Source: Methylosinus sp. Sm6
GTDB taxonomy: Bacteria; Pseudomonadota; Alphaproteobacteria; Rhizobiales; Beijerinckiaceae
DNA: 64,000 nt
Assembly (NCBI RefSeq): GCF_019802345.1
Contig: NZ_JAINDZ010000021.1
Span: 1 to 64,000 of the forward strand
Reading direction: 5' to 3'
A program made the translations under genes and the position numbers. Of the stretch, positions 25,423-50,413 are shown piece by piece. Below the pieces are notes generated by a model. The model was not told the DNA's origin, ran no database searches, and saw only the letters and a program-made list of their open reading frames with translations. Within the stretch, counting starts at the first letter, position 1, and every line of letters begins with the position of its first letter.

Positions 25423-26117
25423 TGTTCGATTTCTCCCCTCAGGAGCTGACGGCGATCGCCCTCAGCCTGAAGGTCGCGGGGACAGCCACCGTCATCTCCC
25501 TGCCCCTCGCCATTTTCGTCGCTTATGCGCTGGCGCGCTGGCGGTTTCCCGGCCATGCGGCGCTCAATGCGCTCATTCATCTGCCGCTGGTCATGCCGCC
25601 GGTGGTCACCGGCTTCGTGCTGCTGCTGCTGCTCGGCCGCAAGGCGCCGCTCGGACACTTCCTGGCCGAATATCTCGGCATCGTCTTCGCCTTCCGCTGG
25701 ACCGGCGCGGCGCTCGCGGCGGCGGTGATGAGCTTGCCGCTGATGATCCGCCCGATTCGCCTCTCCTTCGAGAGCATCGACGAGCGGCTCGGCCAGGCCT
25801 CGCGCTCGCTCGGCGCCGATCCTTTATGGACCTTCTTCCTCGTCACCCTGCCGCTGGCGGCGCCCGGCGTCATCGTCGGCGCCATTCTCGGCTTCGCCAA
25901 GGCGCTGGGCGAGTTCGGCGCGACCATCACCTTCGTCTCCAACATCCCCGGCGAGACGCAGACCATTCCGGCCGCCATCTACAGCCTCACCCAGACGCCG
26001 GACGGCGACGCCGACGCGCTGCGCCTCGCCGCTGTTTCCGCCGTCATCGCCATTGCGGCGCTGATCGTCTCGGAAATGCTGCAGAAGCGCGCCGACGCCA
26101 CGAGGGCCGGCAAATGA
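25422..26117 (+). CDS. modB: Molybdate ABC transporter permease
   Basis: 231 residues from a TTG start with GGAG nine bases upstream. It has five to six membrane helices and the ABC-permease EAA loop (ERLGQASRSLGADPLWTFFLVTLPLAAPGVIVG, about 125-157). IHLPLVMPPVVTGF, GRKAPLG and ALGEFGATITFVSNIPGETQ are specific ModB features. It works with ModC in the inner membrane; the periplasmic binding protein ModA is not next to it and not elsewhere in this window. Its stop overlaps the modC start (ATGA). Confidence 0.93.
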   Translation: MFDFSPQELTAIALSLKVAGTATVISLPLAIFVAYALARWRFPGHAALNALIHLPLVMPPVVTGFVLLLLLGRKAPLGHFLAEYLGIVFAFRWTGAALAAAVMSLPLMIRPIRLSFESIDERLGQASRSLGADPLWTFFLVTLPLAAPGVIVGAILGFAKALGEFGATITFVSNIPGETQTIPAAIYSLTQTPDGDADALRLAAVSAVIAIAALIVSEMLQKRADATRAGK

Positions 26118-27220
26118 TCGCGGTCGACGGCGTCCGCCTGCGCCGCGGCGATTTCGAGCTCTCCGCCTCCTTCGCCAGCAAGGCGCGCATTCTGGCGCTC
26201 TATGGGCCCTCCGGCTCCGGCAAGACGACGCTCGCCCATCTCGTCGCCGGCCTCGCCGCGCCGGACGAGGGCCACATCGCCGTCAACGGCGCCGCGCTCG
26301 TCGACACGGCTGCGCGCCTGTTCGTTGCGCCGGAGAAGCGCCGCATCAGCCTCGTGTTTCAGGACGCGCTGCTGTTTCCGCATCTCGATGTGAAAACCAA
26401 TATCGTGTTCGGCCGTTTCTTCACCCCCGTCGCCGAGCGCCGCGTTCCCTTCGACGCGGTGGTCGAGACGCTCGGCGTCGCGCATCTGCTGCGCCGGCGG
26501 CCGGGCACGCTTTCGGGCGGCGAGCGCCAGCGCGTCGGCCTCGCCCGCGCGCTCCTATGCTCGCCGCGCCTGCTGGTGATGGACGAGCCGATGGCCTCGC
26601 TCGATTTCGACCGGCGCCAGGAGATCATGGCGCTGATCGAGCGGCTGCGCGACGAATTCGTCATTCCGATCCTGCTCGTCTCCCATGCCGCGGACGAGAT
26701 TTTGCGGCTCGCCGACGAGGTGGTGGCGCTGGAGCGCGGCCGCATCGTCGCGCAGGGCCTGCCGTCGGAGACGATCGCTGCGGCGAGCCGGGCGGTCGAG
26801 GGCGGCCGCTTCTCGGTGGTGAGCGCGCTGAACGCGCGCGCGGGCGCGTTCGATCCGCGCTATGGCGTGACGCGGCTCGCGCATCCCTCCGGCGAGATCG
26901 TGATCGCCGCGCGCGTCGCCGACGGCGAGCGGCCCGTGAGGGCGCTGATCAAGGCCACCGACGTGGCGCTGGCGCGCCGCGCGCCCAGCGAGACCAGCAT
27001 TCGCACCGTGCTCGAGGGCGTCATCCGCTCGATCGACGAGGACGAGGGGCCGCTCGCCTTCGTGCAGATCGGCCTGAAGAACGGCGACGTTCTCACCGCC
27101 TCGGTGACACGGCTCTCGGTCGCCGAGATGAATTTGACGATCGGCGGGCCGGTCTTCGCCCTGGTGAAATCGGTCGCGCTCGACGAGAGGGAACTGGGCG
27201 CCGGCATGTCGCGCGATTAG
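26114..27220 (+). CDS. modC: Molybdate ABC transporter ATP-binding protein
   Basis: 368 residues. It powers molybdate uptake through ModB. The Walker A GPSGSGKTT is at 31-39, signature TLSGGERQRVGLARALL near 134-150, Walker B LLVMDEPMASLD near 156-167 and the switch His in VSHAADE. The C-terminal 140 residues form the accessory strand region and a TOBE/Mop domain (LEGVIRSIDEDEGPLAFVQI, TASVTRLSVAEMNLTIG) that can bind molybdate and inhibit transport. Compare the free-standing TOBE protein at 47470-47958, which resembles this C-terminal part. Confidence 0.95.
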   Translation: MIAVDGVRLRRGDFELSASFASKARILALYGPSGSGKTTLAHLVAGLAAPDEGHIAVNGAALVDTAARLFVAPEKRRISLVFQDALLFPHLDVKTNIVFGRFFTPVAERRVPFDAVVETLGVAHLLRRRPGTLSGGERQRVGLARALLCSPRLLVMDEPMASLDFDRRQEIMALIERLRDEFVIPILLVSHAADEILRLADEVVALERGRIVAQGLPSETIAAASRAVEGGRFSVVSALNARAGAFDPRYGVTRLAHPSGEIVIAARVADGERPVRALIKATDVALARRAPSETSIRTVLEGVIRSIDEDEGPLAFVQIGLKNGDVLTASVTRLSVAEMNLTIGGPVFALVKSVALDERELGAGMSRD

Positions 27221-45505: not shown

Positions 45506-46345
45506 TCAGCCCGGATAGCCGCCGTCTTCGTTCAGCGCGTCCCAGGAGAAGGGAGTCCAGCCTTCCGCCTGCATCTCGATAGCGAAGGCGACGCCGCGTG
45601 CGATCAGCCGATTGCGGGGCGTCATGCCGGCGACCTGCGCGGCGGTGGAAACGGCGATGTCGGCGAGCGGCGTGCCGGCGGCGACGGCGCGCCCGTGCTT
45701 GATGACGCCACGAATGCGCCCCGCCTGCGGCGCGAGAGCAGGAACGCCGTCGATCGCGCCGAAGGCCTCGCCGGCCTCGACGATATTGCCGATGTCCTTG
45801 ATCATCGAAAAAATCCCGGAGACCGGCGCGCGCGCCGGCTCGCTCTCGCCCGGCTCGGGGACGGGCGCGGGCCCCGCGCCTTCGCCCGGCCGACGGATCG
45901 CGCCGGGATCCTTGCCAAAGGCGTCGACGACGAGGTCACAGCTCTCGCCGGCGATGGAGTCCGGCGAGAGGCCGATCGTCAGGCCGGCCAGATTGCGCAC
46001 CCCGAAGGGCTCCCGGCGCGGCGCCATTTCGGCGTCGACGACGACCTCCCACGGCCAGCGCTCGAGGATCTGCTGCAGCGGATGAGTGAGCACGGGGATG
46101 AACATGCGGCTGCGCAGGCCGAGCATGAATTCGGCGACGAGATCGGCCCGCCGCGCCTCGACGCCCTCGAGCACGCTCGAGCCGTCGAACCAGGCGTCGG
46201 AGAAGGTCATCTTGCGGCGCAGGTCCGGCGGCGGCGCGGCCTGGTGCATGGCGACGATATGGTCGGCGAGAAACAATTCGCGCGCGATCGCCGAGGCGGT
46301 TTCGCCGATCCCGAGGATCAGCACGCAGGAGTGTCGGTCGGACAT
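45506..46345 (-). CDS. YqeB/EF2563-like molybdenum-hydroxylase accessory protein, paralogue 1
   Basis: 279 residues. The Rossmann-like N-terminus (SCVLILGIGETASAIARELF, 6-25) and the RRKMTFSDAWFDG motif (about 43-55) match the YqeB/EF2563 family, linked in other bacteria to selenium-dependent molybdenum hydroxylases. The second half has GLTIGLSPDSIAGESCDLVVDAFGKDPG and the lipoyl/barrel-like GEAFGAIDGVPALAPQAGRI then RGVIKHGRAVAAGTPLADI. A Pro/Glu-rich insert lies near 158-172. It shares this plan with 48394-49266. The start ATG 46343-46345 is where similarity begins. Confidence 0.75.
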   Translation of the reverse strand: MSDRHSCVLILGIGETASAIARELFLADHIVAMHQAAPPPDLRRKMTFSDAWFDGSSVLEGVEARRADLVAEFMLGLRSRMFIPVLTHPLQQILERWPWEVVVDAEMAPRREPFGVRNLAGLTIGLSPDSIAGESCDLVVDAFGKDPGAIRRPGEGAGPAPVPEPGESEPARAPVSGIFSMIKDIGNIVEAGEAFGAIDGVPALAPQAGRIRGVIKHGRAVAAGTPLADIAVSTAAQVAGMTPRNRLIARGVAFAIEMQAEGWTPFSWDALNEDGGYPG

Positions 46346-46497
46346 GGCTCGAACCGTCGTCTGTTGCAGTCTCGCGACGACAAGCAAGAATCCGGCCTCG
46401 CTGAGCCGTTCCCTGTTCTGCGACGCATGAATGTCGCAAAATTTGGCGCCAGTGACCATTTGCCGCAGAAAAGCAGGCCTTCTTTGGAATGCTTGCA

Positions 46498-46513
46498 GTA
46501 TATTAGTTTATAC
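46498..46513. promoter_or_regulatory. Candidate Mo-box (ModE site)
   Basis: GTATA-TTAGTT-TATAC is a perfect inverted repeat with a six-base spacer, followed by CATATATAAAA. ModE boxes have TATA-rich arms around about six bases. It lies between the first YqeB-like gene (leftward) and the small unknown gene (rightward). ModE binding is inferred. Confidence 0.4.
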
Positions 46514-46580
46514 GGCTCATATATAAAAGCGCGTTCGGAGCCGTCACGCCGAGGCAACCGGCGACGGAAGCGACGACAAT

Positions 46581-46949
46581 ATGGAGAGCGCCGCGGCTGC
46601 GGCGAAGATGGAGGTTCCTGTGCAAGCGAATGTTTCTTCGACGGAAACGACCGAGGTCGGCAATGTGGCCCCCGTCGGCGTCGCAGCGCCCGTGGCCGAG
46701 ACGGCTCCTGGTCCCGAGGCCGGCGTCGCCTCCGAGGTCGCCGACGGCTTCATTCTCCATGTGCGTTTCCGTCCCGATGCGACCATTTGGATGATCGACG
46801 AGTGCCCCTCCCATTTCACGCCGCAGGAATGGTATAACTTCCTCTGCAGCCGCATTCCCGATCGCTATTCGCCGCGCATGGGCGGCCGCGGCGACTTCCG
46901 CGTCAGCCGCGCGCAGCTCGAGGCGTTGAAGGTCCGCAATCCGAGCTGA
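46581..46949 (+). CDS. Small conserved-looking protein of unknown function
   Basis: 122 residues. I do not recognise it. The first 55 residues are low-complexity (Ala, Val, Glu, Thr, Pro: TETTEVGNVAPVGVAAPVAE). The last 65 look like a compact folded domain with aromatic residues, GFILHVRFRPDATIWMIDEC then PSHFTPQEWYNFLCSRIPDR, with two Cys and a basic end. No signal peptide or membrane helix. ATG 46608 is an alternative start. An AT-rich promoter-like region with a Mo-box-like palindrome lies upstream, and all flanking genes are molybdenum-related, so a role in that locus is a fair guess. Confidence 0.6.
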   Translation: MESAAAAAKMEVPVQANVSSTETTEVGNVAPVGVAAPVAETAPGPEAGVASEVADGFILHVRFRPDATIWMIDECPSHFTPQEWYNFLCSRIPDRYSPRMGGRGDFRVSRAQLEALKVRNPS

Positions 46950-47079
46950 TCTTACGAATTCGGACAAATCACGGACGCCGCAATGCGGCGTCCGGCCGCA
47001 GCTTCAGGCTCGCTCTTCGACGTTTTGCCTACCGCGAGGCGCTGGTGGTCTGCTTCATCGAATTTGATGGGTTTCGAGA

Positions 47080-47131
47080 GCGAGCCTTCAGGCTCGCCCT
47101 TTCACCCCTTTCAAATCGGCTGAATCACGCC
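47080..47131. repeat. Partial copy of the 34109-34182 element
   Basis: It has the GCGAGCC-TTCA-GGCTCGC core (47080-47097), CCTTTCACCC and the right arm TCAAATCGGCTGAATCACGC (47111-47130), all as in the full copy; the left arm is replaced by unrelated sequence. The right arm ends one base before the TAG stop of the molbindin gene, the same arrangement as at 34183. Confidence 0.75.
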
Positions 47132-47132
47132 G

Positions 47133-47342
47133 CTAGTCCACGGCCAGGATCACATCGGACGCTTTGACGATTGCCTTGACCTCGCGTCCGGCCTTCAGCT
47201 CCAGATCGTCGACCGATTCATTGGTGATGGCGGCGGTCAGCCGCGCGCCCTGCACCTGAACGACCACATGAGCGGTGGTCGCGCCCTTCTCGACCTTTTC
47301 CACCTTGCCAGCGAAGACATTGCGCGCCGAGATCTTGGTCAT
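47133..47342 (-). CDS. Molbindin (Mop, single TOBE-type domain)
   Basis: 69 residues. KISARNVFAGKVEKVEKGATTAHVVVQVQG and ITNESVDDLELKAGREVKAI then VKASDVILAVD are typical of Mop/molbindin, which assemble into hexamers and bind molybdate or tungstate for storage and buffering in the cytosol. GGGAG precedes the ATG at 47340-47342. It is divergent from the ModC-C-terminal-like gene. The stop codon touches a repeat element. Confidence 0.93.
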   Translation of the reverse strand: MTKISARNVFAGKVEKVEKGATTAHVVVQVQGARLTAAITNESVDDLELKAGREVKAIVKASDVILAVD

Positions 47343-47469
47343 TTGGCACTCCCTGATCGTCCGGGCCTCGGACGGGCCCGAGGCCCGCATCTAGGGCGCG
47401 GAGGGCGGCGAGCGAGCCGGCCGTCCGGCGGGGCTCGCGGGTGGCGCGTTTCTCGCTTCGGCTTCGGAC

Positions 47470-47958
47470 ATGCTGGACTCGAGTTCGCCTCTTTTCGCCC
47501 GAACCTATCGTTTCGTGTCGGCTTTTCCGGCGCGCCTCCTTCGTCACGACGAGACGCTCGGCCTGTCGACGCTGCTGTTTGCGGGCGGCGAGCTGCGCGT
47601 GCCCCTGGTGGACGCCGCGGCGGGGACGGTGGTCGAGGCAAAGATCGACGCCAGCGACGTCTCGATCGCCCTGTCGCGACCAATGGATGTCACCATCCTC
47701 AACCGTCTGCCGGGCGAGATCGTCGCGCTTGGGTTCTTGGCGCCGCCTTTCGTCGTCGCGACCCTGTCGCTCGGCGGGGCGGAGCTGCAGGCGATCATCA
47801 CGCGCGAATCGGTCGATCGCCTCGCCCTCGTCGAGGGGCTGCGCGCCTGGGCGATGATCAAGGCCGTGGCGATCAGCGGCCGGACGCTCGATCCCGATGC
47901 GGCTCCCTATCCGCGTCGCTGGCCGTCTTCTGATAGGACCAGTTCAGGGACGCGATGA
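47470..47958 (+). CDS. Free-standing ModC C-terminal (TOBE) region
   Basis: 162 residues. FPARLLRHDETLGLSTLLFA, GGELRVPLVDAAAGTVVEAK, DVSIALSRPMDVTILNRLPG and LGGAELQAIITRESVDRLAL then RAWAMIKAVAISGR read like the part of ModC after its ATPase: the accessory strand segment and the TOBE domain. There is no P-loop or signature upstream; the preceding in-frame codons (GRPAGLAGGAFLASASD) are unlike ModC. It may be a molybdate-binding regulator derived from modC or a remnant. The last 86 bases overlap the end of the convergent modE-like gene. No clear ribosome site is seen at ATG 47470. Confidence 0.75.
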   Translation: MLDSSSPLFARTYRFVSAFPARLLRHDETLGLSTLLFAGGELRVPLVDAAAGTVVEAKIDASDVSIALSRPMDVTILNRLPGEIVALGFLAPPFVVATLSLGGAELQAIITRESVDRLALVEGLRAWAMIKAVAISGRTLDPDAAPYPRRWPSSDRTSSGTR

Positions 47959-48307
47959 CTTCGTCCAGCGTGCGTTTGGCCGAATGCGCCGCATGTCGCT
48001 CGATGGAGCGATAAATGCTCGCCAGCCGCTCGCCGAAGGGCGTGATCTCGGCGCCGCCCTCGCGGCGGCCCGGAAAAGTGGCGACGACCGGGCTCTCGAA
48101 GGTGCGGTTGAGCGCGTCGACCGACAGCCAGCATTTGCGATAGGAGAGGCCGAGCGCGCGGCTCGCTCCGATGATCGAGCGCTCCTTGCGCACCGCGTCG
48201 ATCAGCTCGAGGTCCTGTGGTCCGAGCGTGCCGCCATTGGGCAGCCGCAGCACCACTCCGACCTGCAAGGCCGAAATCTGCGAGGGCTCATGCTCCGCCC
48301 GCGTCAT
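47873..48307 (-). CDS. ModE-like winged-helix regulator (DNA-binding domain only)
   Basis: 144 residues from ATG 48305-48307, with GGGAG seven bases upstream; ATG 48313 and TTG 48334 are alternatives. LGPQDLELIDAVRKERSIIG then ASRALGLSYRKCWLSVDALN is the ModE/LysR-type winged helix, and VVATFPGRREGGAEITPFGE is the ModE wing with the usual GG-x-x-x-T-x-x-G pattern. The molybdate-binding MopI/TOBE half of E. coli ModE is missing, so molybdate may be sensed through a partner; a molbindin and a TOBE protein are next to it. Direct repeats of GCTATATT lie upstream. Confidence 0.88.
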   Translation of the reverse strand: MTRAEHEPSQISALQVGVVLRLPNGGTLGPQDLELIDAVRKERSIIGASRALGLSYRKCWLSVDALNRTFESPVVATFPGRREGGAEITPFGERLASIYRSIERHAAHSAKRTLDEVIASLNWSYQKTASDADREPHRDRASGR

Positions 48308-48329
48308 CCGCATCTCCCGCTCCGCGACC

Positions 48330-48352
48330 AGCAATATAGCATTTAATATAGC
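48330..48352 (-). promoter_or_regulatory. Direct Mo-box-like half-sites before modE-like gene
   Basis: Read leftward: TGCTATATT-AAA-TGCTATATT. Two identical GCTATATT units spaced 12 bases resemble the half-site of ModE boxes (CGCTATATA) but are direct, not inverted. They lie about 25 bases before the modE-like start, so autoregulation is possible. Confidence 0.4.
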
Positions 48353-48393
48353 AGAAATGCGACGGCCCTGTCACATTTGCGACAAGGCTGCTG

Positions 48394-49266
48394 TCACTGC
48401 GCCACGAAGGAGCCCGGCGAGAGGGCGGCGGCGCGCTCGGCGAGCTTCACGCGAATGGCGCGCGAGACCGCGCTGGCGATGAGCCCCGACCGCTCGTCGA
48501 TGCCGGTCCAGCGCGCGGAGCGTCCTCGCGGATCGATCTCCAGGACCTTCACGCCGCACGGGATCTGGGCGCCGTCGCGAACGACGCCGCGCAGCACGCC
48601 GTCGAGCGGCGCCGTGATCGGCTCGCCGCCGAGATGGCCGACAACGAAATCCTTGAACACGCGCTGGCCGATGTCGATCGCGGTGTGCCACAGGCCCGGA
48701 CGGGACGAATAGACGAAACGCTCTTCGCCGACGCCGCCGAGGAGGCCGGGAATGCGATCCGCCGCCTCGGTCGCTCCGCTATGGACGATGCGGCCGGCCT
48801 CGGAGGGCTTGGTCTCGATGGCGATGTCGCAATTGCGGTCGACGGCGAAATTCGGGCCGAGGCCGACGGCGAGCCCGGCGAGATGGCGCAGATCGGGGGT
48901 GGCGCGATATTTCTGCATCCGCGCGTCGACCAGCGCGTCGGGCGCGCGCAGCGCGACGAGATCATGGAATTGCAGCGGCGTCACCGCAATGTGGGTCGAG
49001 TAATCGAGAGTGGCGAGCAGCTCCAGCGCCGTCTCGGCGCGCTCGCTGGTCACGCCGTCGAGCGTGACCCTCTCGCCATAGAGGCTGTCGTGAAAGGCCA
49101 TCTGCCGCCGGATGACCGGAGGAAACGAGTCGTGACTCAGCACGACGGCCCAACCGATGCGATGCATATGGACGGCGATCGCCGAGGCGATCTCATTCGT
49201 CCCCAAAATGACGGCCAGCGGACGCTTGCGTCGCGGCTGGGCGCCCGGGTCTTCCGACGCGCGCAT
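48394..49266 (-). CDS. YqeB/EF2563-like molybdenum-hydroxylase accessory protein, paralogue 2
   Basis: 290 residues; AGGAGG sits six bases before the ATG at 49264-49266. LAVILGTNEIASAIAVHMHR and VIRRQMAFHDSLYGERVTLD near 42-61 match the YqeB/EF2563 family. LAGLAVGLGPNFAVDRNCDI then AIETKPSEAGRIVHSG resembles the family's LGPGFTAG...ETMRGH region, and TAPLDGVLRGVVRDGAQIPC then GVKVLEIDPRG its C-terminal barrel. In other bacteria the family is tied to the maturation of molybdenum hydroxylases. No hydroxylase or selenophosphate synthase genes are in this window. Confidence 0.78.
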   Translation of the reverse strand: MRASEDPGAQPRRKRPLAVILGTNEIASAIAVHMHRIGWAVVLSHDSFPPVIRRQMAFHDSLYGERVTLDGVTSERAETALELLATLDYSTHIAVTPLQFHDLVALRAPDALVDARMQKYRATPDLRHLAGLAVGLGPNFAVDRNCDIAIETKPSEAGRIVHSGATEAADRIPGLLGGVGEERFVYSSRPGLWHTAIDIGQRVFKDFVVGHLGGEPITAPLDGVLRGVVRDGAQIPCGVKVLEIDPRGRSARWTGIDERSGLIASAVSRAIRVKLAERAAALSPGSFVAQ

Positions 49267-49393
49267 GAATTCCTCCTGATCCGGCGAAGGAGGAAAGCAA
49301 GCCTCGCGCCAGCGCAAAAAATCAAAAAATACTCTGCAATAACAACAAGGTGACTGAAGGGCGCGGCACCGCGCCGGCAGGCGCGAGCTGTAT

Positions 49394-49409
49394 TGTTATG
49401 GATATAACA
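49394..49409. promoter_or_regulatory. Palindrome upstream of the second YqeB-like gene
   Basis: TGTTAT-GGAT-ATAACA, a perfect six-base-arm inverted repeat, 128 bases before the YqeB-like start. GATATAACA resembles the right half of ModE boxes (TATATAACG). Candidate ModE site; spacing differs from the consensus. Confidence 0.35.
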
Positions 49410-49441
49410 CGAGCAAAGCGCGAAAGGCGACAATCGCGCCT

Positions 49442-50413
49442 TCAGTCCACGGGAAGGCGCAGACGGATCTCGTCGACGAAGGCGGCGAGGCAGCGCTTCA
49501 CCGTATCGAATTGCGCCGAGGTCGGGATAATCGCGACGCCATGGACGCCGAGCTCTTCGTTCAGCCGGTTCACATGAGCGGCGACCTCCTTATAGTCGCC
49601 GACCAGCGACATGGACAGCAGCGCCTCGGGGTCGAGCTCGCCACTGCCGACGTGATCGCGTTTCTTCATCTGCTCGCAGAACGCTTCGAGATAGGGGCGG
49701 GCGATCGAGATCGCCTCGTCCCGCCCGGCGGTCGCAAAGCCGAAGCGCGCCAGCACCAGGCGCGGATCGCCCTCCGGCGCCTCCTCGCGGTAGATCGAGA
49801 GCATATGGCGCAGCCGCTCCTCCGTGCAGGTGGCCGAGGCCATGAGGCCATAGCCCTTGCGCGCGGCGAGCCGGATGGTGCTGTCCGTGGTCGTGGCGAT
49901 CCAGGTCGGGACAGGCTGCTCTGGCCGCGGCGCGAGGGTCAGCCGATCGACGGCGAAGAACTTGCCCTTATGCGTGACCTCCGTCTCCTTCAGCAGGCGC
50001 TGCACGAGCTCGAGCGCCTCGAGCCCGCGCTCGCCGAGGTCGGCCGGCTCGACGCCGAAACATTTGGCGTCGGCCCCGAAGGCGACGCCGCTGGCGACGC
50101 CGAAATTGAAGCGGCCCTTGGTGAGCAGATCAATGCTGGCGACATCCTCGGCGAGCTGGATCGGATCACGCAGCGCGGGCAGATAGGCGGCGGAGCCGAC
50201 GCGCGCGCGCATGGTGACGCCGGCGGCGTAGCCGAGCATCACCGAAGCGGCGCCGCTCGGCCAGCGATCGTCGAAATGCTGCTCGCCGACCCATATGTCG
50301 TCATAGCGCATGCGCTCGGCCTCGCGCACCAGAATGAGCTGGCGCGTCAAGGCGCGGCCGTCCTCGAGGGTGGGATTGTCGAACAGGCACAGATAGCCAA
50401 ATCTCGGATTCAT
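49442..50413 (-). CDS. Luciferase-like (LLM class) flavin-dependent oxidoreductase
   Basis: 323 residues; ATG 50411-50413 with GGAG upstream. The TIM-barrel luciferase-like plan is clear: MNPRFGYLCLFDNPTLEDGR, IWVGEQHFDDRWPSGAASVM, RARVGSAAYLPALRDPIQLA, DLLTKGRFNFGVASGVAFGA and the late LVGDYKEVAAHVNRLNEELG. It would need FMNH2 from a reductase. It shares its layout with 17725-18729. It lies upstream of the YqeB-like gene in the same direction (175-base gap), but a functional link to molybdenum is not shown. Confidence 0.86.
   Translation of the reverse strand: MNPRFGYLCLFDNPTLEDGRALTRQLILVREAERMRYDDIWVGEQHFDDRWPSGAASVMLGYAAGVTMRARVGSAAYLPALRDPIQLAEDVASIDLLTKGRFNFGVASGVAFGADAKCFGVEPADLGERGLEALELVQRLLKETEVTHKGKFFAVDRLTLAPRPEQPVPTWIATTTDSTIRLAARKGYGLMASATCTEERLRHMLSIYREEAPEGDPRLVLARFGFATAGRDEAISIARPYLEAFCEQMKKRDHVGSGELDPEALLSMSLVGDYKEVAAHVNRLNEELGVHGVAIIPTSAQFDTVKRCLAAFVDEIRLRLPVD

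Follow-up and report, generated by a model that had tools for sequence, protein, structure and literature searches.

What do two proteins of the YqeB family do beside molybdate-binding proteins, in a genome with no match to selD? The question is raised by a locus of 4.9 kb (positions 45506-50413) in Methylosinus sp. Sm6, within the first 64,000 nucleotides of contig NZ_JAINDZ010000021.1 (the window). A preliminary description, made from the letters of the window, had listed seven genes here: two encode YqeB-family proteins, and among the others are genes for a molbindin, a TOBE protein on its own and a ModE that lacks its sensor half. All seven are present, and the family matches of the Mop, TOBE, ModE(N) and YqeB proteins agree with its view of a molybdenum-centred module. 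Its further view that the module is stand-alone does not hold, as one of the two proteins, YqeB1 (48394-49266, minus strand), is tied to nitrogenase by co-occurrence, by neighbouring genes and by its promoter. We give an even chance to the explanation that the locus is a molybdenum-handling module serving Mo-nitrogenase, in which YqeB1 would be central, activated by NifA and repressed by ModE in response to molybdenum.

By computation, the tie of YqeB1 to nitrogen fixation is strong. We examined 397 genomes of the order and identified YqeB1-type genes in 20 (one of them, in G478, a broken piece). Co-occurrence with nitrogenase, a check proposed in the preliminary description, is clear: nifD is present in 19 of the 20 genomes, compared with 67 of the full set of 397 (Fisher 3e-15), and nifQ in all 20, compared with 70 of the full set (Fisher 7e-17), P values that overstate independence because the loci come from related species. 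The sole YqeB1 genome without a nifD match, G519, has a completeness of 88% and contains nifQ. In the sample, nifD is found in each of the 12 genera with YqeB1, and the window genome carries both nifD and nifQ. The presence of nifQ alongside YqeB1 in every case led us to reject YqeB1 as a replacement for NifQ.

An alignment of YqeB proteins was scanned against bacterial and archaeal genomes, and the best 80 loci of 122 relatives were compared. Most are from groups with known nitrogen fixers. Genes close to YqeB1 include nifHDKENX, nifA, nifB, modABC, modD, DUF2478, ModE(N), TOBE and Mop. Of the 78 loci that were typed, 30 carry nif genes at a distance of up to 5 kb, 30 carry molybdenum genes, 4 carry both and 14 carry neither, by neighbourhood labels that are approximate ('AnfD?' is RubisCO, and 'SIR2' and 'ModC' may be mixed). 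Locus L169, in which the motif was not found, was neither typed nor counted, and L153 was omitted from the upstream counts (too little sequence). In a tree of 50 of the 80 loci, one clade (19 rows, support 89/87) consists of nif-type or untyped loci, and another (28 rows, support 96/93) is mostly of molybdenum type and includes the window; 11 YqeB1 rows belong to neither. Three strains, BTAi1, STM 3809 and SRS-191, have one copy from each of the two clades; in Bradyrhizobium sp. BTAi1 (L157 and L174) one copy follows a mod operon and the other is beside nifA. Three plasmid records label the YqeB1 protein 'xanthine dehydrogenase'. Globin-like genes occur near YqeB genes at L055-L057, L059-L062, L051, L167 and L178. 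Outside the subfamily, YqeB-like genes (L053, L054) sit within ABC-transporter operons of plasmids, in Paraburkholderia (substrate unnamed) and in Thermomicrobium (with modA), an arrangement that we count in favour of a molybdenum-handling role.

The promoter of YqeB1 involves the following features:

48394-49266, minus strand: YqeB1, similar to TIGR03309 (160.7 bits, profile positions 2-253 of 256), with a Rossmann-like half and a biotinyl-like barrel
49297-49312, minus strand: sigma-54 -24/-12 element of YqeB1, CTGG-N8-TTGC, predicted from its sequence pattern
49388-49409, minus strand: composite box of YqeB1, a predicted NifA-type TGT-N10-ACA (49394-49409) within a predicted ModE-type operator

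The TGT-N10-ACA lies 97 bp upstream of CTGG-N8-TTGC, and this is the single such pair in the 64 kb of the window (mean 0.025 in 40 shuffles). Both elements are preserved in the window and in all eight relatives of the genus that have the locus (the promoter of L058 was read from the genus alignment and a weight-matrix scan). A promoter of similar layout, with its elements 86 bp apart, is found ~1.2 kb upstream of nifD in the window genome, and presumably belongs to nifH. Across the subfamily, TGT-N10-ACA occurs 50-170 bp upstream of GG-N8-TTGC at 47 of 78 YqeB1 loci; among the other genes of these loci, 4 of 548 have such a pair. The sigma-54-like element alone is found at 57/78 YqeB1 loci and before 28/548 other genes, and TGT-N10-ACA alone at 49/78 and before 42/548. 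The available excerpts of PMC7294313 give CTGG-N8-TTGC for sigma-54 and TGT-N10-ACA for NifA; this sigma-54 consensus was found after GG-N8-TTGC had been chosen and applied in the counts of single elements, and was then used in the search for pairs.

The composite box is present in all nine genomes of the genus with the locus (alignment and weight matrix). A matrix of the nine boxes gives the modA operator of E. coli K-12 a score of 25.4 bits, which none of 500 shuffles of that region reached (best 23.5). The E. coli operator and the composite box have the ACAATATA end in common, with CGT in place of TGT in the former. Outside the genus, a strict ModE box occurs at 9 of 78 YqeB1 loci (8 of the 30 of molybdenum type and 1 of the 4 with both kinds of neighbour) and before 1 of 548 other genes. 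Read from its letters, the YqeB1 box fits a predicted NifA site and a predicted ModE-type operator at once.

We suggest that nitrogen fixation in Alphaproteobacteria has recruited YqeB1 from the YqeB family. NifA would activate it under nitrogen shortage, and ModE with molybdate would repress it when molybdenum is plentiful; YqeB1 would therefore be made when a fixing cell is short of molybdenum. A precedent for such dual control is found in the morAB genes, as described in excerpts of PMC6925177. Mop and the free TOBE protein may act as molybdate binders beside YqeB1, which may itself move or prepare molybdenum for assembly of the FeMo-cofactor, probably upstream of NifQ. This biochemical step is a guess.

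The remaining features of the locus are as follows:

45506-46345, minus strand: YqeB2, second YqeB-family paralogue (TIGR03309 103.4 bits, profile positions 1-249 of 256)
46495-46530: AT-rich conserved element between the divergent YqeB2 and p122, loosely ModE-box-like (nine-genome alignment)
46581-46949, plus strand: p122, paralogue of a small nif-cluster protein
47133-47342, minus strand: Mop (molbindin; TIGR00638 79.8 bits)
47470-47958, plus strand: free TOBE protein, resembling the C-terminal part of ModC without the ATPase
47873-48334, minus strand: ModE(N), DNA-binding half only, its 3' end overlapping the TOBE gene by 86 nt
48334-48350: ModE-box-like site upstream of ModE(N) (TATAT-N7-TAYAT, 10/10 matches)
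48369-48384, minus strand: TGT-N10-ACA upstream of ModE(N), half-sites kept in nine aligned genomes
49442-50413, minus strand: LLM-class flavin-dependent oxidoreductase (PF00296)

Both YqeB proteins score below the TIGR03309 cut-off of 220 bits, yet their homology is near full length (profile search and alignment). No Pfam family, and thus no XdhC domain, was matched by either at E values up to 1. From sequence comparison, YqeB1 forms a YqeB subfamily of its own, and no selD accompanies it in the genome. Mop is a single-domain protein above its family cut-off of 55. In the free TOBE protein, one TOBE domain is clear and a further TOBE-like stretch is weak (17.1 bits; cut-off 27); the protein aligns to ModC positions 238-352 (TIGR02142, under cut-off) and, among solved structures, weakly matches molybdenum-binding protein 1h9j (E 0.0003). 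ModE(N), of 153 amino acids, matches positions 2-91 of 100 of TIGR00637 (53.8 bits, E 1.6e-14; under the 98.5-bit cut-off), and a Pfam scan gave no TOBE match; the C-terminal TOBE/Mop sensor domains are absent. No family was matched by p122 in profile scans, nor was a relative found among solved structures (one match, E 0.61). The AT-rich spots of the preliminary description are real: three of the five in the window (26-bp windows with at least 20 A/T) are inside the locus. The element at 46495-46530 has 8/10 matches to TATAT-N7-TAYAT (at 46499) and is not one of the 12 top-scoring sites in the weight-matrix scan. The site at 48334-48350 reaches just 15.3 bits with the matrix of YqeB1 boxes, and no sigma-54 element was found with the TGT-N10-ACA before ModE(N).

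The core YqeB2-p122-TOBE-ModE(N)-YqeB1 is preserved, in this order, in eight of the nine other genomes of the genus. The set of seven is thus conserved in part: Mop and the LLM gene are each found in one of the eight relatives (G008 and G004, respectively). An LLM gene, 35% identical, also precedes the YqeB gene of a Methylovirgula plasmid. The closest relatives seen for YqeB2 are within the genus, followed by those of G012 and G018. A second copy of p122 lies ~3.3 kb from nifD in the window genome (G000) and in six others of the genus (G002 to G006, G009), and a homologue is inside the nif cluster of a Methylococcus plasmid. Thus, p122 provides a second, weaker link of the locus to nitrogen fixation.

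As the preliminary description had it, YqeB paralogues here go without selD: no match was found in the window genome at E 1e-20. Nor was selD found in eight of the nine other genomes of the genus. The exception is G008 (86% complete, 6% contaminated), in which a strong match (G008:C320:6600-7526) may be contamination. The accompanying statement that hydroxylase and XdhC genes are missing stands for the hydroxylase within the locus; XdhC was not searched genome-wide. The window genome encodes a single distant MoCoBD_1 protein, and none was found in G001, G005 and G008 (the last 86% complete), all of which have the locus.

Elsewhere in the window genome, a third YqeB paralogue is on contig C80, with a TolQ/ExbB-type gene (PF01618) nearby and no molybdenum gene recognised in its surroundings. 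Contig C81 encodes a ModE with two TOBE domains, clustered (L073 270-5979) with a TonB receptor, a di-haem peroxidase-like protein and a solute-binding protein. In five Methylocystis-type loci (L128, L136, L139, L142, L146) YqeB1 is within a cluster of this type. Within the window, a likely ModC-like ABC-transporter ATPase, which bears a TOBE domain, is encoded 18 kb from the locus (25826-27220, plus strand); pattern and weight-matrix scans found no strong ModE box near it.

Pairing of a TOBE-less ModE with an adjoining free TOBE gene is widespread. In all 21 loci that hold both, the genes are tail-to-tail and overlap by 71, 86, 92 or 101 nt, in the same reading register in every case. The loci are from the genus of the window, G018, Beijerinckia, Methylocapsa, Rhodoplanes and Bradyrhizobium (two of the 21 are probably one genome). 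A stretch like the DNA-binding half of ModE(N) is also present in 183 plasmid records, in which the presence of TOBE was not checked.

The structure model of YqeB1 (pLDDT 93.2, pTM 0.90) has a Rossmann-like N-terminal half and a barrel resembling biotinyl carrier domains, as seen from a fold search with partial matches only. Short-chain dehydrogenases were matched at VIA Z 9 to 10, and Z near 9 is common for the Rossmann-like fold. No relative was found by sequence among solved structures (best E 0.32). Where the biotinyl-lysine of the barrel would be expected, we read GGEPI. Cysteine C146 is invariant in 52 aligned rows, including YqeB2; the rows of canonical YqeB, Paraburkholderia and Thermomicrobium with which it was compared lack it. 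The glycine-rich loop GSGDIAS of the canonical row reads GTNEIAS in YqeB1. The Rossmann-like half and C146 are candidate sites of chemistry, and on the basis of the model the function of YqeB1 is not deducible from its fold alone.

Several observations weigh against a molybdenum-handling module for nitrogenase. YqeB1 is missing from 48 of the 67 nifD genomes of the sample, and thus is not required for fixation. Within the genus, G001 has the locus and keeps nifA, and nifD and nifQ were not found in it; its nifA lies 2.6 kb short of the end of a contig, and nifHDK would be expected in that direction, so a gap and a loss of nifHDK are indistinguishable. Conversely, G007 has nifD and no YqeB match, hence no locus. 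Strict dependence of the locus on nitrogenase inside the genus is therefore not shown. The pair of elements is lacking directly before YqeB1 at 31 of 78 loci (in several of these an upstream gene bears one or both). The sigma-54 pattern was relaxed to GG-N8-TTGC, upon viewing the sequences, after a stricter score failed (with YTGGCACGRNNNTTGCW, 1 of 78 loci scored 10 or more). The strict ModE box occurs at 0 of 30 nif-type loci and 0 of 14 other loci; by these counts, the fused box characterises the genus and some of the molybdenum-type loci, and does not extend to the whole subfamily. The regulation of YqeB1 and its binding of molybdenum are predictions, and the TGT-N10-ACA could belong to the ModE operator alone.

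This last point amounts to a rival account of the promoter, in which the box is a ModE operator whose own letters supply TGT-N10-ACA, and the YqeB1 of the genus is regulated by molybdenum and not by NifA. It concerns the promoter alone and is compatible with the other readings. The closeness of the box to the E. coli modA operator, which is not a NifA site, speaks for it. We consider it unlikely, given that a sigma-54 element is placed downstream at a distance like that of the presumed nifH promoter (97 and 86 bp), and that TGTC-N8-GACA-like sites, in which the ModE letters are missing, are found at most of the nif-type loci that carry the pair. The preliminary description proposed instead a module for sensing or storage of molybdate or tungstate that stands alone, with a split ModE for which the free TOBE protein or Mop would act as sensor. 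Both the constant tail-to-tail overlap of the ModE(N) and TOBE genes (71-101 nt, 21/21 loci) and the ModE-like boxes in the locus would fit this. However, YqeB1 tracks nitrogenase, and a borrowed sensor is not needed because the genome also encodes the two-TOBE ModE, which could read the boxes alone; nor is a DNA-binding half by itself unusual, because 183 plasmid records hold a similar stretch. We find this proposal unlikely.

It is likewise improbable, in our judgement, that YqeB1 is an NAD(P)-dependent, Rossmann-like redox or protective enzyme for nitrogenase, placed near molybdenum genes as a regulatory convenience. Its Rossmann-like half, the matches to short-chain dehydrogenases (VIA Z 9 to 10) and the globin-like genes among the neighbours are in keeping with such an enzyme, but Z near 9 is ordinary for this fold, GTNEIAS replaces the glycine-rich GSGDIAS loop of the canonical row, and relatives outside the subfamily adjoin modA or other ABC-transporter genes. 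The canonical role of YqeB, in maturation of selenium-dependent or other molybdenum hydroxylases, is very improbable for YqeB1. Scores below the TIGR03309 cut-off, the lack of selD in the window genome and in 8/9 of the others of the genus (the exception being the contaminated G008), and the lack of MoCoBD_1 proteins in G001, G005 and G008 despite their having the locus all disfavour it, against which stand the similarity to TIGR03309, the one distant MoCoBD_1 protein of the window genome and the phenotype of a C. difficile yqeB mutant on uric acid and xanthine (excerpts of PMC11448449).

To our knowledge, little is established about the transport and preparation of molybdenum for nitrogenase upstream of NifQ. 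YqeB1 is a concrete candidate for this supply, as its occurrence in Alphaproteobacteria tracks that of Mo-nitrogenase and it may respond to nitrogen as well as molybdenum status. Its promoter is a place where joint control by NifA and ModE is directly testable. We tentatively advance a more specific version of the molybdenum-handling module, doubtful as it is, in which YqeB1 would be a molybdenum-trafficking or molybdenum-activation factor for the FeMo-cofactor, made only when the cell is fixing and short of molybdenum via a fused NifA/ModE AND-NOT site, with the overlapping ModE(N) and TOBE as the split sensor of the same system.

Control by NifA is partly prior art. In the parts available, Tsoy et al. 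2016 (PMC4999443) report conserved NifA sites before an 'xdhC' without a known link to fixation, and also before modABCD genes, and a study of Bradyrhizobium sp. DOA9 (PMC13207237) reports an RpoN site before 'xdhC/coxF'. The DOA9 site, TGGCCCGGCTCTTGC, is identical in every letter to those before YqeB1 in L127 and L176. From the annotation names and this one identical sigma-54 string, the 'xdhC' of both studies is probably YqeB1, which is why we regard their NifA and RpoN sites as probable YqeB1 sites; the parts available mention neither YqeB, nor a ModE operator, nor a molybdenum module. Our literature searches found no description of the YqeB identity, the nif co-occurrence, the overlaid ModE operator or the module. 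One match for 'YqeB' and 'nitrogenase' (PMC2997495) does not, in the part available, link the two. What appears to be new is a YqeB subfamily in a nitrogenase-linked molybdenum module.

Compared with known systems, YqeB1 is like YqeB/EF2563 (TIGR03309) over near-full length, including the region of the RR motif. It differs in scoring below the cut-off, in its genome without selD, in its locus without a hydroxylase gene, and in its NCD motif, the cysteine of which is lacking in the one canonical YqeB row compared. In the available parts of Haft and Self 2008 (PMC2276186), TIGR03309 proper is confined to selD genomes, with a sharp drop in score before homologues from species mostly without selD; the YqeB1 subfamily would fall beyond this drop. 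In C. difficile, according to excerpts of PMC11448449, yqeB mutants are unable to use uric acid, and their growth on xanthine is poor. Our findings are consistent with the earlier suggestion, in the part available of PMC5029168, that YqeB on its own is not necessarily a sign of selenium use. ModE(N) has the DNA-binding half of ModE without the sensor, and the free TOBE protein has the TOBE part of ModC without the ATPase. For regulation, the closest likeness is to morAB of Rhodobacter capsulatus, a molybdenum gene system activated by NifA and repressed by MopA/MopB (excerpts of PMC6925177), and thus likewise under control of NifA and ModE-type proteins; unlike the locus described here, it encodes a transporter and not a YqeB protein.

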